The position numbers were made by a program, and so were the translations under genes. Below, in pieces: positions 2,603 to 20,930 of a stretch of DNA of 64,000 nucleotides. A model generated the notes under the pieces. That model worked only from the letters and a program-made list of their open reading frames with translations, was not told where the DNA came from and made no database searches. The stretch is from Candidatus Schekmanbacteria bacterium (GTDB lineage Bacteria; Schekmanbacteria; GWA2-38-11; J061), in the NCBI GenBank assembly GCA_016219965.1, contig JACRJM010000003.1:256299-320298 (forward strand), in the 5' to 3' direction. Within the stretch, counting starts at the first letter, position 1; each line of letters starts with the position of its first letter.

Positions 2603-4177
2603 TTATTTTTTTCTTCTGAACATATTGTAGTAGTAGGTATCAAGGGGGCTAAAGCTTGTTCCGGTTATATACGGCTTTACAAGTATATTCTTACTGCCCA
2701 CAAAAAGCGGGATTATGGGCACATCCTCCTCGCAGAGAATCTTCTGGGCTTTGTTGTAAATTTCCAATCTTTTCCCGTTATCCCCTGTCTCAGCACCTTC
2801 TGTTATCAGCCGGTCATATTCTTCATTTCCCCAGCCTGTGTTGTTGTTGCCGCTTGAGCTTGTAAATATGCGCATGAAATTATCCGGGTCAGGAAAATCT
2901 GCGCCCCATCCTAATCTAAATATATCCGGACAGTCATTTTTAAGCTTCGTGAGATAGACCTTCCATTCAAGGTTATCAAGGTTAGCGTGTATTCCAAGGT
3001 TTCTTGAAAGCTGTGACTGGATGTTCTCCGCTACAATGCGGTTTTCCTCTGATGAGTTAAAAGCAATCGTTAATTCCGGAAACTTTTTCCCTCCGGCGTA
3101 GCCCGCCTCGGCAAGTAATTTCCTGCCTTTCTCCGGGTTAAAACTTATTCCTATGGCATTGTTTTCTGCGAACATCCCCTGCGGTATCCATGATGTCACC
3201 GGAATATCGCCGCTGTTTAAGGAGTTCACTATCTCGTTTCTGTCAATTGCGCTGACTAAAGCCCTTCTCACAATGCTGTTGTTGAAAGGAGCTTTTTTTG
3301 TGTTAAAGCCATAATAGTATCCGCGAAGTATGGAGTATCTTTTGTATTCAGGGTTTGTCTTAAGCTTTGACACTGCTATGGAAGGAAGTTCAACTATATC
3401 CAGCGCGCCTGTTTCATAAAGAAGAAGTGCAGTATTAGGCTCGCTTACCATGAAGATATCCACTTCTTTAAAGTCAGGCTTTGCTCCTTTATAGTGGGGA
3501 TTTTCGCTTAGCTCTATCTTGTAGTCATGCTCCCATTTCTTAAGATGATAAGGTCCGTTTCCTATCATATTGTCCGGCTCAGTCCAGCGCTCGCCGTATT
3601 TTTCCACGATGTCCTGTCTTAACGGGAATGTTACCATAAAAGCCGTTAACGCCGGGAAAAACACAAGCGGCCTCTCAAGTGTCACTTCAAGCACTGTGTC
3701 AGAGATGGCTTTCACTCCAACGCTGTCAGAGTTTTTGAGTTTCCCTGCATTATAGAGATAGGCGTTTTTTATATCATAAAGAAAATAAGCATATTCAGCG
3801 GCTGTTTCAGGGGCAAGGAGTCTTTTCCACGAATATTCAAAGTCTCTTGCGGTTACAGGCCTGCCATCGCTCCACCGGCTTTTCTCATTTATATAGAATC
3901 TGTATCTTGTGAATGAGCTAAAGCTTTCCCATCTTGATGCTACCGATGGAATGACATTCATCTTCTCGTCAAAGCGCGTAAGGCCTTCCATAATATTGTT
4001 TATCACAGTGAATGAAACATTGTCTGTCGCAAGGTTCCAGTCAAGGGTTGGAGGCTCAGAGGATATGGCGACGCGAAGTCTCGCCATGTCATTTTTTTCA
4101 ACATCTGCTTTGCAGCCATAAAGAAAAAGAATGCACAAACATAATACAATTCTTATATGTAATTTATTTTTTTTCAT
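2603..4177 (-). CDS. Peptide ABC transporter substrate-binding lipoprotein, OppA/DppA family (SBP_bac_5)
   Basis: Extracytoplasmic receptor that hands peptides (or related solutes) to the OppBC-type permeases downstream. The N-terminus is a lipoprotein signal with lipobox LYGC, Cys22 being the lipidated residue. The 524-residue mature body shows the SBP_bac_5 hallmarks: the LDWNLATDN start, RWSDGRPVTARDFEYSW near residues 105-120, a GNGPYHLKKWEHD block, and RRALVSAIDR. First gene of the operon. There is no recognisable Shine-Dalgarno before the ATG at 4177, but a TATAAT box ends only eight bases upstream, so translation may begin on a nearly leaderless mRNA. Confidence 0.92.
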   Translation of the reverse strand: MKKNKLHIRIVLCLCILFLYGCKADVEKNDMARLRVAISSEPPTLDWNLATDNVSFTVINNIMEGLTRFDEKMNVIPSVASRWESFSSFTRYRFYINEKSRWSDGRPVTARDFEYSWKRLLAPETAAEYAYFLYDIKNAYLYNAGKLKNSDSVGVKAISDTVLEVTLERPLVFFPALTAFMVTFPLRQDIVEKYGERWTEPDNMIGNGPYHLKKWEHDYKIELSENPHYKGAKPDFKEVDIFMVSEPNTALLLYETGALDIVELPSIAVSKLKTNPEYKRYSILRGYYYGFNTKKAPFNNSIVRRALVSAIDRNEIVNSLNSGDIPVTSWIPQGMFAENNAIGISFNPEKGRKLLAEAGYAGGKKFPELTIAFNSSEENRIVAENIQSQLSRNLGIHANLDNLEWKVYLTKLKNDCPDIFRLGWGADFPDPDNFMRIFTSSSGNNNTGWGNEEYDRLITEGAETGDNGKRLEIYNKAQKILCEEDVPIIPLFVGSKNILVKPYITGTSFSPLDTYYYNMFRRKK

Positions 4178-5471: not shown

Positions 5472-5476
5472 CTGTA

Positions 5477-5601
5477 GCGAATTCAATTTTTGGCGTGATA
5501 CTTCGTCAGTGACCAGCTCGCAAATCCTCATGTACAGAAAAGTACACTCCGGTATTGCTCGCTACCCACTTCCTCGTCTTCCATCCAAAACTTGAATCCG
5601 C
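5477..5601 (-). repeat. Hairpin repeat family 1, copy 1 (full length, 125 bp)
   Basis: A 125-bp element bounded by imperfect terminal inverted repeats (GCGAATTCAATTTTTGG at 5477 and CCAAAACTTGAATCCGC at 5585). Read on the minus strand it holds GAGGAAGTG, then ATACCGGA, an apical hairpin GTGTAC-TTTTCT-GTACAT, then GAGGAT and CTGACGAAG. The same order of blocks is found at 6695, 7328, 19711 and 19837. It begins five bases after the MFS stop codon. Whether it acts as DNA (a MITE-like element) or as RNA (a 3' structure) is not known. See findings. Confidence 0.85.
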
Positions 5602-5642
5602 AGGAAAAAATCATTCCTTGCTTGATTGAAGATGATTTTTTT

Positions 5643-6596: not shown

Positions 6597-6694
6597 TAAT
6601 ATCTTATGTAAATGTAGAATTATGCTTGAAATGTCTTCTTCAAATAGAAATGTAGGTTTTGAATAATGTAAATAGAAGGGTATTAAGCTTTTCC

Positions 6695-6817
6695 GCAGAC
6701 GCAAGATTTGAGTATCAGGCGAGGAAGCGGAGGATTAGCATACCGGAGCATACTTTTCTGTATGTGAGGATTGCTAACCGGACGCTGACGAAGCATCATG
6801 CCAAATATTGAGTCTGC
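6695..6817 (+). repeat. Hairpin repeat family 1, copy 2 (full length, 123 bp)
   Basis: Terminal inverted repeats are GCAGACGCAAGATTTG (6695) and CAAATATTGAGTCTGC (6802). The interior reads GAGGAAGCG, then TTAGCA pairing with TGCTAA, the apical hairpin GCATAC-TTTTCT-GTATGT (6748-6765), GAGGAT and GCTGACGAAG. It lies 27 bp past the bacteriohemerythrin stop codon, on the side where that gene's transcript would continue. The rest of the 6512-6844 gap, besides this element and the candidate promoter, shows no gene. Confidence 0.85.
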
Positions 6818-6844
6818 TACTTTCTCCCCCCTATCAAAGCGGCT

Positions 6845-7281: not shown

Positions 7282-7317
7282 GCAGACGCAAGATTTGTGT
7301 ATCAGGCAAGGAAGCGG
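7282..7317 (+). repeat. Hairpin repeat family 1, fragment (left arm only)
   Basis: GCAGACGCAAGATTTG followed by TATCAGGCAAGGAAGCGG nearly repeats the left arm of the copy at 6695, then stops. The next full copy starts 11 bp further on (7328). It looks like a truncated element left by insertion or recombination between copies. Confidence 0.75.
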
Positions 7318-7327
7318 TTTTTTTATT

Positions 7328-7454
7328 GGCGAATTCAAGTTTTAGATGTTAGACAAGGAAGTGGATGACAAGCAATACCGGAGCATACTTTTCTGTATGT
7401 GAGCATTTGCGAGCTGGCAGATGACGCAGTATAACTCTAAAAATTGCATTCGCC
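7328..7454 (+). repeat. Hairpin repeat family 1, copy 3 (full length, 127 bp)
   Basis: Ends GGCGAATTCAAGTTTTAG and CTAAAAATTGCATTCGCC form terminal inverted repeats. The interior has AAGGAAGTGG, AGCAATACCGGA, the apical hairpin GCATAC-TTTTCT-GTATGT, GAGCATTTGCGAGC and ATGACGCAG. Its right end directly abuts the stop codon (7455-7457) of the lipoprotein gene transcribed towards it. Confidence 0.85.
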
Positions 7455-12279: not shown

Positions 12280-12326
12280 CTTATTTCCTCCAGCATTTCA
12301 AATGCGATTTGTTTGTATTATACTTT

Positions 12327-12363
12327 GTCATCTATCAGTTCGCAAATACTCATATAGAAAAAA
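12327..12363 (-). repeat. Hairpin repeat family 1, truncated copy
   Basis: GTCATCTATCAGTTCG followed by CAAATACTCATATAGAAAA matches the complement of the right half of the copy at 7328 (GTCATCTGCCAGCTCG, CAAATGCTCACATACAGAAAA), and stops at the hairpin loop. A decayed half-element between the RmlC-like gene and the cytochrome gene. Confidence 0.65.
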
Positions 12364-12366
12364 TTA

Positions 12367-13683
12367 TTAGTGCATCACCTTCGGGACAAACTCTTCAAAT
12401 ATGAATTTCGGGTCCTTGTCGGTTGTGTGGCAGACGACACAGACGTTTTCAGTTATTTCTGCTTCAGAGCTTTTGCTTTGAGGATGGTTATCTGTGACTT
12501 TGTGGCAAGCAGTGCAGCCTACGTTAATCATCTCCGGGGTTTTTGTGAAATTGATATAACCTCCTTTTCTTCCGTAGCCTATAGTGTGACAATAGAGGCA
12601 TTCAGGGTCAAAATCGCGTCCATCTTTTATGAGAGTTTGAAAGGCTTCTGCATGTTTTGTGTTTGACCACTGATCATATTGTTCGCTGTGGCACTCTGCG
12701 CATTTTTCATTGGGCATATAAATATTTCCCATCCCTGCCCTGTACGCCTCATACTCCGGTATCGTTTCCCCCTCTGAGGAAGTTTTTTTGACTTCATCAA
12801 GATATTGGAGAAAAAGCTTTTCTACTTTTTTATCCGCAGGGAGAACTTTTGAAAGGGGAATGAATTCATCGTCTATTTTTTCAATCCTGTTTTTATCATC
12901 GAGACTGATTTTGAGCTTGCCAAGATATTCCCCGTCTTTTCTGGCATTAAAAATCGGCACTGACTTATGAACCGTTTTATGAGGATAATCTTTGTCCCAG
13001 TGTCCTTCTATTATAAGAGAAACTTGCGGATATTTTTCAATTAAGATTTTGTCTGTAGCCAAGTCCGCGTGCGAGACAATTATGATAATATCAGTTTTTG
13101 ATTTTAAATAATCGAGATAAGCTTTTATGCGGCTTGTTTGCGAGCTAACTGTGACAGATTCAATATTTCTATCTGTCCCATCTGTCAATGAAAGGACTCC
13201 AATCTTTACTCCATCAATATCTTTTATTGTGTAGGGAGAGAAAAGGAGTGAAGTGCTTTCATGTGAGAAGAGCGATGCTGATATAAAAGGAAGTAAGTTC
13301 TGCCCGGTTTCATCCATAAGATACTTAAGCCCCAAGTTAAAATCCATCTCTCCGGGAGCAATGGCATCGTAGTGCATTACGGAATAGGCTTTAAGGATAT
13401 ACTGGAGTTTCCTTTTCTCAAAATCTGATTTACCGGCCGGAAATATATCTCCCCCGTCAAGGAGAAGTAAATCTTTGCTCTGGTTTCTCAAAGTTTCTAT
13501 CATGTAAGCCCTCTGCGATATCCCGCCAAATGGATTTCCCGGACATCCGCAGGCAAGAAAAACATTGCGCGTGCTTCCCGTAAATAGGATTGTGAAGTCT
13601 TTTGCGTCTATGACAAAGGGGAACAGAAACAGAATTATAATAATTAATGCCGGGCTTTTTTTCATATTTTTATAATAATTCAT
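12367..13683 (-). CDS. Exported UshA-like protein fused to a tetraheme cytochrome c domain
   Basis: Periplasmic protein of 438 residues. A signal peptide spans about residues 7-27. The N-terminal half has the fold pattern of the 5'-nucleotidase/metallophosphatase family (ILFTGSTRN, LLLDGGDIF, GEMDFN, VSHADL, IIEGHWD). Key metal ligands look changed: no D-x-H in the first block, GEMD where GNHE/D is usual, GHWD where GHxH is usual, and an early ACGC pair. The C-terminal 115 residues hold four c-type heme sites: CAECH 328-332, CLYCH 362-366, CTACH 390-394, CVVCH 415-419. It is therefore more likely an electron-transfer protein than a nucleotidase. Start at 13683 or the ATG at 13665; neither has a clear ribosome site. 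Confidence 0.85.
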   Translation of the reverse strand: MNYYKNMKKSPALIIIILFLFPFVIDAKDFTILFTGSTRNVFLACGCPGNPFGGISQRAYMIETLRNQSKDLLLLDGGDIFPAGKSDFEKRKLQYILKAYSVMHYDAIAPGEMDFNLGLKYLMDETGQNLLPFISASLFSHESTSLLFSPYTIKDIDGVKIGVLSLTDGTDRNIESVTVSSQTSRIKAYLDYLKSKTDIIIIVSHADLATDKILIEKYPQVSLIIEGHWDKDYPHKTVHKSVPIFNARKDGEYLGKLKISLDDKNRIEKIDDEFIPLSKVLPADKKVEKLFLQYLDEVKKTSSEGETIPEYEAYRAGMGNIYMPNEKCAECHSEQYDQWSNTKHAEAFQTLIKDGRDFDPECLYCHTIGYGRKGGYINFTKTPEMINVGCTACHKVTDNHPQSKSSEAEITENVCVVCHTTDKDPKFIFEEFVPKVMH

Positions 13684-16636: not shown

Positions 16637-18574
16637 ATGGCTAAAATACTTGATAAAATAAATTTTCCCTCTGATATAAAATCCCTTCCTCTTGAGGAAC
16701 TTGATGAGCTTGCAGGGGATGTAAGGGAACTGATAATAGATGTAATATCGAGAAACGGTGGACATCTTGCATCTAGCCTCGGAGTCGTTGAACTGACGAT
16801 TGCGCTACATTATGTCTTTGATACCCCGGTGGACAAGATAATCTGGGATGTGGGTCACCAGGCATATGCCCATAAGATACTGACTGGAAGAAAAGACAGG
16901 TTCAATACGATCCGGAAATACGGTGGATTGAGCGGCTTTCCCCATCCGGAGGAAAGCGAGTATGATTCCTTTGTGGCAGGACATGCAAGCACTGCCATCT
17001 CAGTTGCACTCGGGATACTCGAGGGGATCGAAAAGAACGAAAAACCGGGCAAGGTTGTGGCGGTTGTCGGAGACGGTTCCCTTACAGGGGGAATGGCTTT
17101 TGAAGGCCTTAATCAGGCAGGTCATATAAAGAATAATTTTACTGTCATACTCAATGACAACAAGATGTCTATCTCGCCTAATGTGGGTGCTCTTGCTGCT
17201 TATTTGTCTAAGGTCACGACAGGCACAAAATACATGAAATTCAGAAAAGATGTTGAAGCGCTTCTTGCAAGCTTTCCTAAAATCGGCTCTCAGTTAGTAA
17301 AGAAAGTAAAACAGGTTGAAGAGGCTTTAAAAAGCCTCATAGTCCCCGGGATACTTTTTGAAGAACTTGGATTTAAATATGTGGGACCCATAGATGGACA
17401 TAATATCAACCATCTCATTGAAACGCTGAAGAATGTAAAAAAACTTGAAGGTCCTGTTCTTGTCCATGTAATCACTATGAAGGGAAAGGGGTACCATCAT
17501 GCGGAAGATGATCCGTCCACATTTCACGGCGTAGCGCCCTTTGACATAGTGAGCGGTGAGTTTGACGGTAACGGAGGAGCAGTTTCCTATACCCAGATAT
17601 TCTCAGAAACACTTATAAAGATTGCGGAAAAAGATAAAAGAATTGTGGCAGTTACTGCTGCCATGGCCGAGGGAACGGGGCTTTGTATCTTCAGGGAAAA
17701 ATTCCCTGAACGTTTTTATGATGTTGGAATTGCGGAACAACATGCTGTGACATTTTCTGCCGGCCTTGCATCGCAGGGAATGAAGCCGGTTGTTGCTATA
17801 TATTCAACATTTTTACAAAGAGCCTATGACCAGATCATACACGATACATGCATCCCGCATCTTCCGGTTGTCTTCGCTGTTGACAGGGCAGGCATAGTCG
17901 GGGCTGACGGCGTCACGCATCAGGGGACACTCGATATTTCGTACCTCAGGCTTATACCCGGCATTACCTTAATGGCCCCGAAGGATGAGAATGAGCTCCA
18001 GCATATGCTGTTTACTGCTTTTACAATCAACGGACCTGTGGTCTTACGATATCCGCGCAGTGTTTGCGAAGGTGTGGTTATGGATGAGGAGTTAAAGCTC
18101 ATTCCTGTCGGGAAAGCGGAGATAATGACTGAAGGAAATGACATACTTATCATCGCCTCCGGTAATATGGTGCATCCTGCTTTGTGTGCAGGAGAAAAAC
18201 TTAAAAAAGAAGGGATAAGCTCGACGGTTTTGAATTTAAGATTCATAAAGCCCTTGGACAGCGAAACAATTTTGAAATTAGCCGGAAAAATTACTACTAT
18301 TTTAACAGTAGAAGAAAACACTATCCCGGGAGGAATGGGAAGCGCTATTATAGAAATGCTCGCAGAGAAGGGAATAACAAACCTTAATATAAAGCTGATG
18401 GGGATACCGGACGAATTTGTCCCGCACGGTTCTCAAAAACAGCTCCGTGAGAGATACGGTCTTACCATAGAAGGAATTGTATCAGCAGCAAAGAGCATGA
18501 TAGAAAATAAAAAAGTTTCAGAACTCTCAATTAAGAGAAAAATAAAGGAGGTTGGCATAATTGGCAAAAACTAA
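16637..18574 (+). CDS. dxs: 1-deoxy-D-xylulose-5-phosphate synthase
   Basis: Thiamine-diphosphate enzyme that joins pyruvate and glyceraldehyde 3-phosphate, the first step of the MEP isoprenoid pathway. Visible landmarks: DVGHQAYAHK with His74, the thiamine-diphosphate motif GDGSLTGG at 145-152 running on to the ILNDN segment, the pyrimidine-domain sequence DVGIAEQHAVTFSAGLA, and the transketolase C-terminal domain from about residue 500. Length 645 is slightly above the typical 620-640 because of a basic C-terminal tail. The ATG at 16637 is 24 bp after ispA; the next gene starts inside its end. Confidence 0.97.
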   Translation: MAKILDKINFPSDIKSLPLEELDELAGDVRELIIDVISRNGGHLASSLGVVELTIALHYVFDTPVDKIIWDVGHQAYAHKILTGRKDRFNTIRKYGGLSGFPHPEESEYDSFVAGHASTAISVALGILEGIEKNEKPGKVVAVVGDGSLTGGMAFEGLNQAGHIKNNFTVILNDNKMSISPNVGALAAYLSKVTTGTKYMKFRKDVEALLASFPKIGSQLVKKVKQVEEALKSLIVPGILFEELGFKYVGPIDGHNINHLIETLKNVKKLEGPVLVHVITMKGKGYHHAEDDPSTFHGVAPFDIVSGEFDGNGGAVSYTQIFSETLIKIAEKDKRIVAVTAAMAEGTGLCIFREKFPERFYDVGIAEQHAVTFSAGLASQGMKPVVAIYSTFLQRAYDQIIHDTCIPHLPVVFAVDRAGIVGADGVTHQGTLDISYLRLIPGITLMAPKDENELQHMLFTAFTINGPVVLRYPRSVCEGVVMDEELKLIPVGKAEIMTEGNDILIIASGNMVHPALCAGEKLKKEGISSTVLNLRFIKPLDSETILKLAGKITTILTVEENTIPGGMGSAIIEMLAEKGITNLNIKLMGIPDEFVPHGSQKQLRERYGLTIEGIVSAAKSMIENKKVSELSIKRKIKEVGIIGKN

Positions 18575-19640
18575 AGTAGCTGTAATAAAAACCAAACCTG
18601 AATCCGCAGTGGAAGACTATGGCAAACTTCTTGAGATGGCAGAGTTCGAAAAATTTCTCACTAAGGGGAAACCTGTCATTCTTAAGGAGAATATCTCATG
18701 GCATTTCCCTTATCCTGGGGCCAATACTACGCCGTGGCAGCTTGAAGGAACAATCAAGAAACTTAGAGAAAAAGGATACGGCGATCTTGTGGCTGTTTCG
18801 AATGAGACAGTTGTCACAAATGCATTTAAAGGTGAGAAGCTTAACAAGTTCACCCCTGTCTTTGAAAAATACAACATCCCAGTGAAATATAATTTCCTCC
18901 CAAAAGATATAAAATGGGTTCGCTATGAGCCAAAGGCAAAGATGATGGTGCTTGATAAGATTTTCCCGGATGGCATCTATCTGCCGGACTTCTTCTTCGA
19001 CAAAAATATAGTTCATCTGCCGACTGTGAAATGCCATATATATACTACGACTACGGGAGCTATGAAAAATGCCTTCGGCGGACTGCTCAACACACGCAGG
19101 CATTATACGCATAGCGACATCCACAGAACATTGGTTGACCTCCTGAAGATCCAGAAAGAGATTCACTCAGGGATTTTTGCGGTAATGGACGGCACTACCT
19201 GCGGCAACGGCCCGGGACCCCGCACTATGATTCCTGTAGAAAAAGATTACATCCTTGCAAGCGGTGATTGTGTTGCGATCGATGCTGTGGCAAGCAAGAT
19301 GATGGGGTTTGATCCGATGAAGCTCGACTATATCAGGGTTGCACACGAAGAAGGCCTGGGAACAGGAAGATTGGACGAAATAGAAATAGTAGGGGAAGAT
19401 ATATCAAAGGTGGATTTCAAATTCTATGTAGGCGACAACCTGGCGAGCCATGTGGGCGACCTTCTCTGGTTCAGCCCGCTAAAGATTATGCAAAAGCTGT
19501 TTTTCCATACGCCGCTTGTTTATCTCTTTGTTTTCGGTTCCTTCTTCTACCATGACTATCTCTGGTATCCGGTCTTTGGAAGGAAAGCTGTAAACAATTT
19601 CCTGAAAACCAAGTGGGGAAAGCTTTTCGCCAGCTATTGA
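18561..19640 (+). CDS. DUF362 domain protein
   Basis: 359-residue protein with DUF362 features: VILKENISWHFPYPGANT near the start, VHLPTVKCHIYTTTTGAMKN FGG-type block in the middle, and ILASGDCVAIDAVASKMMGFDP later. DUF362 is often linked to iron-sulfur proteins, but no C-x-x-C-x-x-C cluster motif is present here. The C-terminal 60 residues contain an aromatic, hydrophobic segment (LVYLFVFGSFFYHDYLW) that could associate with the membrane. The start is TTG at 18561, placed by a strong GGAGG nine bases upstream and overlapping dxs by 14 bp, so it belongs to the dxs operon. Its link to isoprenoid synthesis is unknown. Confidence 0.85.
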   Translation: MAKTKVAVIKTKPESAVEDYGKLLEMAEFEKFLTKGKPVILKENISWHFPYPGANTTPWQLEGTIKKLREKGYGDLVAVSNETVVTNAFKGEKLNKFTPVFEKYNIPVKYNFLPKDIKWVRYEPKAKMMVLDKIFPDGIYLPDFFFDKNIVHLPTVKCHIYTTTTGAMKNAFGGLLNTRRHYTHSDIHRTLVDLLKIQKEIHSGIFAVMDGTTCGNGPGPRTMIPVEKDYILASGDCVAIDAVASKMMGFDPMKLDYIRVAHEEGLGTGRLDEIEIVGEDISKVDFKFYVGDNLASHVGDLLWFSPLKIMQKLFFHTPLVYLFVFGSFFYHDYLWYPVFGRKAVNNFLKTKWGKLFASY

Positions 19641-19657: not shown

Positions 19658-19709
19658 AACCACAGAGGTCACAGATTACAAAACAATCTGCAGCTTCTGT
19701 GGTTTTTTA
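19658..19709 (+). terminator. Rho-independent terminator of the xseA-dxs-DUF362 operon
   Basis: AACCACAGA pairs with TCTGTGGTT, ending in a run of six T. The loop is long (about 30 bases, with an inner ACAGATT/AATCTG pairing). It starts 17 bp after the DUF362 stop codon. Confidence 0.65.
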
Positions 19710-19710
19710 T

Positions 19711-19835
19711 ATTCCAGCCCATAGTCAAAAGTAGACCGAGGCGACAAGGAGGAAGCGACGCAGGCGTACTGTTTTGTACGTCGAGGAGCTGACGACGCAG
19801 GCAACGAAGGGATACAAATGAATATTGGCTGGAAT
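19711..19835 (+). repeat. Hairpin repeat family 1, divergent copy (125 bp)
   Basis: Terminal inverted repeat ATTCCAGCC (19711) and GGCTGGAAT (ending 19835). The interior keeps the family order: GAGGAAGCG, the apical hairpin GCGTAC-TGTTTT-GTACGT, CGAGGA and GCTGACGACG. The termini differ from the other copies, so it is a subfamily. It lies directly head-to-tail with the next copy, one base apart, between the DUF362 terminator and nadA. Confidence 0.75.
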
Positions 19836-19836
19836 T

Positions 19837-19960
19837 GCGAATGCAAGATTTGTGCGTCAGGCGAGGAAGCGGAGGATTAGCATACCGGAGCATATTTCTG
19901 GATATGTGAGGATTGCTAACCGGACGCTGACAAAGCATCACGCCAAAGCTTGCGTTCGCC
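19837..19960 (+). repeat. Hairpin repeat family 1, copy 5 (full length, 124 bp)
   Basis: Terminal arms GCGAATGCAAGATTTG and CCAAAGCTTGCGTTCGC pair with each other. The interior is nearly identical to the copy at 6695 (GAGGAAGCGGAGGATTAGCA, TACCGGA), but the apical stem is GCATAT-TTCTGG-ATATGT, a compensated change. It ends one base from the nadA stop codon (19962-19964). The 19641-19961 gap is filled by the terminator and the two repeats. Confidence 0.88.
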
Positions 19961-19961
19961 C

Positions 19962-20930
19962 TTAGTCACGCGGGATTTCGAGCATGCGTTTGAGAGATAA
20001 ATACGCCCTCCCCCTCACCGGCTCCTCAACCTTAATGACAGGCTCAAGGCGTTCAAGGGCAAGGACAATATCCACAAGCCTTGTGAGCTTCATGTTAGGG
20101 CAGATCATCCGTGTCCTTGATGGATGAATAAATTCCTTTTCCGGGTTATCTTTTTTAAGCCTGTAAAAAATCCCCTCCTCGGTACCTATTATAAATTTTT
20201 TTGCAGGACTCTCTTTTACATACGTTAGCATTCCTGATGTGCTGCATATGTGGTCTGCAAACTCAAGGACTTCAGGCGGACATTCCGGATGAGCTACAAA
20301 AAGCGCGTCAGGATTTTCTTTTTTTACCCTTTCAACATCATTAACGCGCAGGAGATGATGCGTGGGGCAGAACCCCTCCCAGGGGATGACTTTTTTTGCT
20401 GTATGTTTTGCAGTATAAAGGGCAAGATTTTTATCAGGCACCATGAGCACAGTGTCTTCTTTAACGGAATTTACCACGTTTACCGCATTGGCAGATGTAC
20501 AGCAGATATCACTTATGGATTTTACAAGAGCTGAAGAATTTACATAGCAGACTGTTGGCACGCCCGGAAGTTCAGCCTGTTTTTTTTTAAGTTCTTCTTC
20601 TGTTACCATGTCAGCCATCGGGCATCCGGCATCGATTCTGGGAAGTATTACTTTTTTTCCGGGTGAAAGTATACTTGCGCTTTCAGCCATGAAATGCACG
20701 CCGCAGAATATTATTATCTCTGCACTGCTCTTTGATGCCTCGATGCTTAAGCCAAGGGAGTCTCCGCAAATATCTGCGATTTCCTGAACCTCATCGCGCT
20801 GGTAGTTATGGGCAAGGATTATTGCATTTTTAGATTTTCTGAGTTTATTAATACGATCGGCAAGAATTGTATCGCTCAGGGTGTTCAGCATTCCCTCTAT
20901 ATTGCCATCAGCTTTGTTATTTATAGCCAA
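19962..20930 (-). CDS. nadA: Quinolinate synthase
   Basis: Oxygen-sensitive [4Fe-4S] enzyme that makes quinolinate from iminoaspartate and dihydroxyacetone phosphate in NAD synthesis. Motifs: [12 protein letters not shown], then [21 protein letters not shown] (first cluster Cys), the region HPECP and the late CPNMKLT Cys. Length 322 fits the long bacterial form. The start is TTG at 20930, directly after the pgpA stop codon with an AAGG site eight bases upstream, implying coupling to pgpA. No nadB or nadC is nearby. The stop codon is followed one base later by a hairpin repeat. Confidence 0.95.

Follow-up and report, generated by a model that had tools for sequence, protein, structure and literature searches.

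The two abutting hairpins that lie beside nadA in this Candidatus Schekmanbacteria genome are most probably ERIC-like mobile hairpins of two subfamilies, and there is good evidence of a far wider superfamily. Each half is very probably a non-autonomous, MITE-like hairpin, and the large superfamily that contains it most likely includes the enterobacterial ERIC repeats. In what follows, the window is the whole stretch of DNA that was analysed (64,000 nucleotides).

The preliminary description had placed two hairpin repeats at 19711-19835 and 19837-19960, between a terminator and nadA. Coordinates, arms and folding energies confirmed the two elements, and the pair is indeed flanked by a terminator-like hairpin (19658-19704) and by the nadA stop codon (19962). 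The two arms of the type 1 outer stem occupy 19711-19727 and 19819-19835, respectively, the pairing of the type 2 hairpin spans 19837-19959, and a single T (19836) separates them. Type 1 starts 6 nt past the terminator-like hairpin of the DUF362 gene. nadA, carried by the opposite strand, runs towards the pair, and 1 nt separates its stop codon from the type 2 3′ end. Both are long imperfect hairpins in the same orientation, with ATTCC..GGAAT and GCGAA..TTCGC as element termini, and no shuffled sequence folded as well as either of them.

Table 1. Coordinates of the hairpin elements and of the genes and hairpin beside the pair; positions are those of the window unless a contig is given, and R1 is the type 2 covariance model.
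Feature	Position	Strand	Details
DUF362 gene	18561-19640		upstream of the pair, ahead of the terminator-like hairpin
Terminator-like hairpin with T-run, belonging to the DUF362 gene	19658..19704	+	inverted repeat, 80% complementary, then TTTTTTAT
Type 1 hairpin element, outer stem ATTCCAGCC..GGCTGGAAT	19711..19835	+	-45.3 kcal/mol, z -5.6; R1 23.9 bits
Type 2 hairpin element, outer stem GCGAATGC..GCGTTCGC	19836..19960	+	-56.0 kcal/mol, z -6.0; R1 135.1 bits
nadA (quinolinate synthase)	19962..20930	-	PF02445, E = 3e-119; ORF
Full type 2 copy	5476..5602	-	R1 135.3 bits
Full type 2 copy	6694..6818	+	R1 138 bits
Partial type 2 5′ arm, then T-run	7282..7318	+	nhmmer match, model 2-38 (L024:2089-2125); directly upstream of the 7328..7454 copy
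Full type 2 copy	7328..7454	+	R1 117.4 bits
Second type 1 copy	C4:456510-456632	-	DNA search and R1
C4 type 2 partner	C4:456634-456759	-	abuts the second type 1 copy

A DNA search with the pair revealed a dispersed family in its own genome. The covariance model R1 was built from 18 type 2 copies only (alignment A1). Thirty-three full-length type 2 copies scored 99-138 bits in this genome, and the next match below them, at 38 bits, was a real copy read antisense. The two type 1 copies of the genome were aligned end to end with 23.9 and 21.8 bits, the one in the window being matched over its full length (E = 5e-4 within the window), and no third type 1 copy was found at the DNA level in the genome. 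Since a model made from type 2 finds type 1, the two types share a fold. Local copies measure 125-127 nt, and those of type 2 lie nearly all between ORFs.

Three further observations concern the copies of this genome. The window carries at 12297-12405 (minus strand) a decayed copy with a weak R1 score (19.4 bits), whose 3′ half is well preserved (TGAGTATTTGCGAACTG..TGACAAAGTAT). Two copies, L035 (C1:64570-64696, minus strand) and L036 (C14:15498-15622, minus strand), have their 3′ ends 0-3 nt ahead of apparent tRNA genes of the same direction, as judged by eye. A second repeat type (GGATTCCC..GGGAATGACA / CGCGATGACA) is located directly upstream of several copies (L025, L032, L034, L045).

The fold is conserved far better than the sequence of the outer stem, which is highly variable yet stays paired, as with AAAAAAAA/TTTTTTTT in one copy. 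In alignment A1, 97% of cells are paired and double changes occur in 21 of the 34 pairs, compared to 10 in shuffles. In a cross-phylum set (A4), 33/34 pairs change on both sides, in an alignment that was fitted to the model structure and whose covariation counts therefore lean towards that structure. None of 500 shuffles reached the observed level of covariation, and slid controls collapsed. The conserved tip reads CGGAGCRTAY..RTAYGTGAG, one of its pairs being an invariant G-U (54/54), and the internal loops are also constant. The plus strand gives the more stable fold in 37/37 copies of this genome, in 37/38 of the distant genome G045 and in 76/89 other loci. This better folding of the plus strand, together with wobble pairs that fit it, therefore points to selection on a single folded strand of fixed polarity. 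The selected strand could be RNA or single-stranded DNA, the data being compatible with either.

T-runs are found 5′ of the plus-strand hairpin, with at least 5 T in 16/37 copies of this genome, compared to 1/37 for the control, A-runs on the 3′ side. This is the wrong side for a Rho-independent terminator, and this candidate was rejected. No Rfam family matched in the window at the gathering score, and a loose threshold (E up to 10) gave chance-level matches only. The candidate RF01699 (Clostridiales-1) was also rejected, with 25 bits against a cut-off of 48.

R1 also matched 38 places in G045, a genome of the same domain, and two in a genome of the same order. It had no match in another genus of the family, and no hairpins were found in one other genome of the order. 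A scan with the tip pattern had, among the matches listed, some in Proteobacteria, Bacillota, Bacteroidota, Planctomycetota (Scalindua), Nitrospirota, Myxococcota and others. The flanks of these matches, outside the searched pattern, fold on each other (mean z -5.5) and form hairpins of median 125 nt and 45 bp. R1 aligns end to end with most of those in other phyla. A second covariance model (R2), whose training took in the window type 1 copy and no known ERIC copy, gave 55.9 bits on that copy of its own training set and 40.1 bits on the second type 1 copy, which is outside the set. Among 386 sampled genomes, R2 detects members in 35, the richest of which has 54 copies.

No match to the type 1 tip pattern was found in viral contigs. 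A copy was observed in Yersinia phage vB_YenM_42.18 (L304:895-1020), between gpM and gpL, with a short ‘hypothetical protein’ annotated inside. This copy is a possible vehicle for transfer; its empty site was not found in the phage collection searched.

Filled and empty sites were compared among E. coli strains, where a present/absent difference reads as insertion or deletion. Some strains have the nfi-hemE copy (147 bp) and others lack it cleanly; it carries CTTAG on both sides, TTA being the hemE stop codon read on the other strand. The cysP-ucpA copy (146 bp) is strain-variable too. At this site, E. coli 2014C-3057 (L255) shows a third state, a 13-nt footprint resembling two element ends joined, possibly an imprecise excision product. 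In G045, a leader of ~18 nt and a T-rich stretch ahead of the hairpin are part of the unit, and flanking repeats of 4-5 bp, counted in 13/26, are more frequent than expected by chance (permuted mean 5.4, maximum 12). The test over all copies of the Schekmanbacteria genome was not significant for the set (p = 0.23). Single duplications could be read there: the C4 type 1 copy is flanked by CTATC, which includes the CTA stop of its neighbour, and CATCC lies on either side of a copy at C9:73509-73634, which adjoins an older copy's 3′ half. At the type 2 copy 19836-19960 no target duplication is readable. The elements are dispersed and their distribution is patchy between genomes. No mobilising protein was found. 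We propose that some trans-acting enzyme would recognise the folded single strand (ssDNA or RNA), probably through the tip and the internal loops and not through terminal sequence.

Incomplete and nested copies were also observed. Tandem 5′-arm fragments (~38 nt or half elements), with a T-rich spacer after each, lie directly upstream of a full copy at L049:1638-1851 (minus strand; C15 near 328138) and L047:1643-1785 (minus strand; C7 near 208698). One locus holds about five fragments and another two, and full elements at other places in the genome match some of the arms. Solitary short forms of G045 (L297, L298, L303) are composed of the leader, TTTTTT and the 5′ arm only, and at least L303 is directly ahead of a start codon. 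One full element sits within the tip of another at L030:1443-1674 (minus strand; C4 near 413763); the outer copy has kept both paired arms and lost its tip. Among the fragments of this genome, two stop at the tip and one starts at the tip. Such nested or tip-ended pieces would arise if an extruded hairpin broke or slipped at its tip.

The elements could also be SINE-like: a reverse transcriptase would have spread copies of a structured RNA by retroposition, instead of DNA being transposed as a hairpin. The plus-strand-specific folding, the invariant G-U pair and the compensatory changes are consistent with this, as are the tandem upstream 5′-arm fragments with their T-runs and the short, variable target duplications. 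However, no poly-A or poly-U is present at a constant terminus, and in G045 the T-run is located between leader and hairpin. Several truncations, moreover, have the hairpin tip as their end point, and cleavage or slippage at a DNA hairpin would account for this as well. Retroposition is, in our judgement, unlikely.

The genes beside the elements, called by a simple longest-ORF rule, show a marked asymmetry. Of 139 genes at the 3′ side, 100 lie on the opposite strand (p = 2e-7), the upstream neighbour being unbiased (71/138), and the 3′ gap to the stop codon of that gene is at most 15 nt for 25 copies in this genome and 25 in G045. Stop-codon adjacency could result from selection, by survival, instead of targeting: an element in the reverse orientation would give the mRNA the stronger hairpin immediately after the stop codon, which selection might disfavour. 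Alternatively, the elements would not be mobile DNA at all but regulatory RNAs of gene ends, or terminators, that selection maintains there. This would account for their strong tendency to abut stop codons in a single orientation, and ERIC at 3′ ends affects mRNA levels in Yersinia (PMC10969869, PMC2229807). Nevertheless, we hold it to be quite improbable in view of the clean filled and empty sites in E. coli and of a presence so patchy that another genus of the family and one other genome of the order have none. In addition, a terminator would have its T-run on the other side, and the conserved fold belongs to the antisense strand and not to the mRNA strand. For a mobile hairpin inserted at nadA, it is the weaker complement that would lie in the 3′ UTR of the gene, where it may affect the decay of the mRNA; such an effect has been reported for Yersinia ERIC.

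Type 1 and type 2 are paired at exactly two places in the genome, with the same orientation within each pair, in the order 1-2 at nadA (C3) and 2-1 on C4. Both type 1 copies thus abut a type 2 copy. The order of the two subfamilies, whose constancy the preliminary description had proposed to check, is not fixed, and the pair is therefore no fixed composite RNA. Two interpretations had been offered for the pair, two subfamilies with a shared fold or a composite 3′ structure of the riboswitch-like or protein-binding tandem kind. The first stands, as the model made from type 2 only matches type 1, and the second was rejected on order, context and copy number, Rfam also speaking against it. That the pair acts as one functional RNA regulating nadA or the DUF362 gene is thus most implausible: its halves share an orientation, abut and are both strongly folded with covariation, and each type 1 copy sits beside a type 2 copy, but 31/33 type 2 copies are outside such pairs, the second pair is reversed, the nadA pair is downstream of a terminator and antisense to nadA, copies adjoin unrelated genes, two of them abutting apparent tRNA genes, and Rfam has no match.

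Two mobile hairpins that inserted one after the other at one gene end are the better reading of the nadA pair. An element landing at a gene end would leave the stop codon duplicated, with a copy on the gene side, and a later element would then insert with the stop codon on one side and the older element on the other. Since each insertion would duplicate the stop codon, copies would come to abut in the same orientation and in either order, as in both pairs. At C4, type 2 would be the older and type 1 the later arrival, which the duplication supports. At nadA, type 2 would have come after type 1; we infer this order from position, no duplication being visible there. In an unrelated genome, another adjacent pair was observed in inverted orientation, its members 11 nt apart (G134:C9:2821-2945, minus strand, and 2957-3079, plus strand).

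ERIC repeats have served for decades in strain typing and, to our knowledge, their way of moving has not been understood since 1991. We tentatively suggest that ERIC and the hairpins studied here might be branches of a bacteria-wide superfamily whose machinery would read the shape of the folded strand (invariant tip, fixed G-U, G-A-rich internal loops) and target stop codons in a fixed orientation. If true, this would be a DNA-mobility system analogous to, and distinct from, integron attC and REP/RAYT. A wider, fold-defined superfamily would make ERIC movement testable, through hairpin-protein co-occurrence across phyla and with strain-variable E. coli insertions as an assay. Stop-codon placement with codon duplication would account for the spread of such elements through compact genomes with the genes left intact, as well as for the origin of pairs like that of nadA.

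Among known systems, the elements resemble ERIC/IRU/RU-1 (127 bp) in length, in forming a single long imperfect hairpin, in intergenic dispersal and in their location at gene 3′ ends. The ERIC tip, GGAGC-TTAC..GTAA-GTGA, is like the tip of the elements here. An ERIC locus of E. coli, located with the ERIC sequence printed in PMC2759123, was found by R2 (29.9 bits, E = 2e-6) and R1 (22.3 bits) at the correct place and strand. The models aligned its tip as GGAGC.UAC / GUA.GUGA, and likeness at the sequence level is confined to this tip, the ERIC outer stems being unrelated to those here. ERIC is described with 5′TA3′ at its termini (PMC2229807), whereas the elements here lack them and have readable duplications such as CTATC, CTTAG and similar. 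ERIC is reported from Enterobacteriaceae and Vibrionaceae (PMC10969869), in contrast to the distant bacterium studied here. Since the TA termini and the outer stem of ERIC are missing, we take ERIC as a relative and not as the family of these elements; this relationship is apparent mainly from the tip and the overall fold. As of a 2007 review, transposase-driven movement of ERIC had no experimental support yet (PMC2229807).

An unannotated ~142-bp repeat of E. coli, Salmonella, Klebsiella and Pantoea shares the tip, the fold and a 3′ end beside the opposite-strand hemE stop, along with strain-variable insertion and a 5-bp duplication. It differs in inner and outer stem sequences, and R1 gives only 25-35 bits on the E. 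coli copies. This repeat possibly corresponds to the RSA/BEE95 elements, which we know by a reference title in PMC3751351. In YPAL/RU-2 (Yersinia palindromic, 168 bp), also a mobile repeat with structure, the target duplications are short and variable (PMC2229807). YPAL/RU-2 was rejected as the family of these elements, its published sequence (PMC2759123) having, by eye, no GGAGC..GTGA tip.

REP/BIME with their RAYT (Y1) transposases are also structured intergenic repeats near gene 3′ ends. REPs, however, are 20-40 bp long with GTAG/CGTC tags (PMC3733652), compared to ~125 nt for the hairpins here, none of which was found within the ~1.5 kb flanks of 20 Y1 loci. A link to Y1 transposases was rejected, no hairpin lying beside the Y1 genes examined. 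As for a classical MITE, single arms near-matching the G045 element were, in the loci read, unpaired around any transposase. Integron attC sites are long imperfect hairpins, strand-specific and variable in their stems, and it is their structure that is recognised. No one-orientation cassette array is seen here, and the likeness to attC is an analogy in how the two would work.
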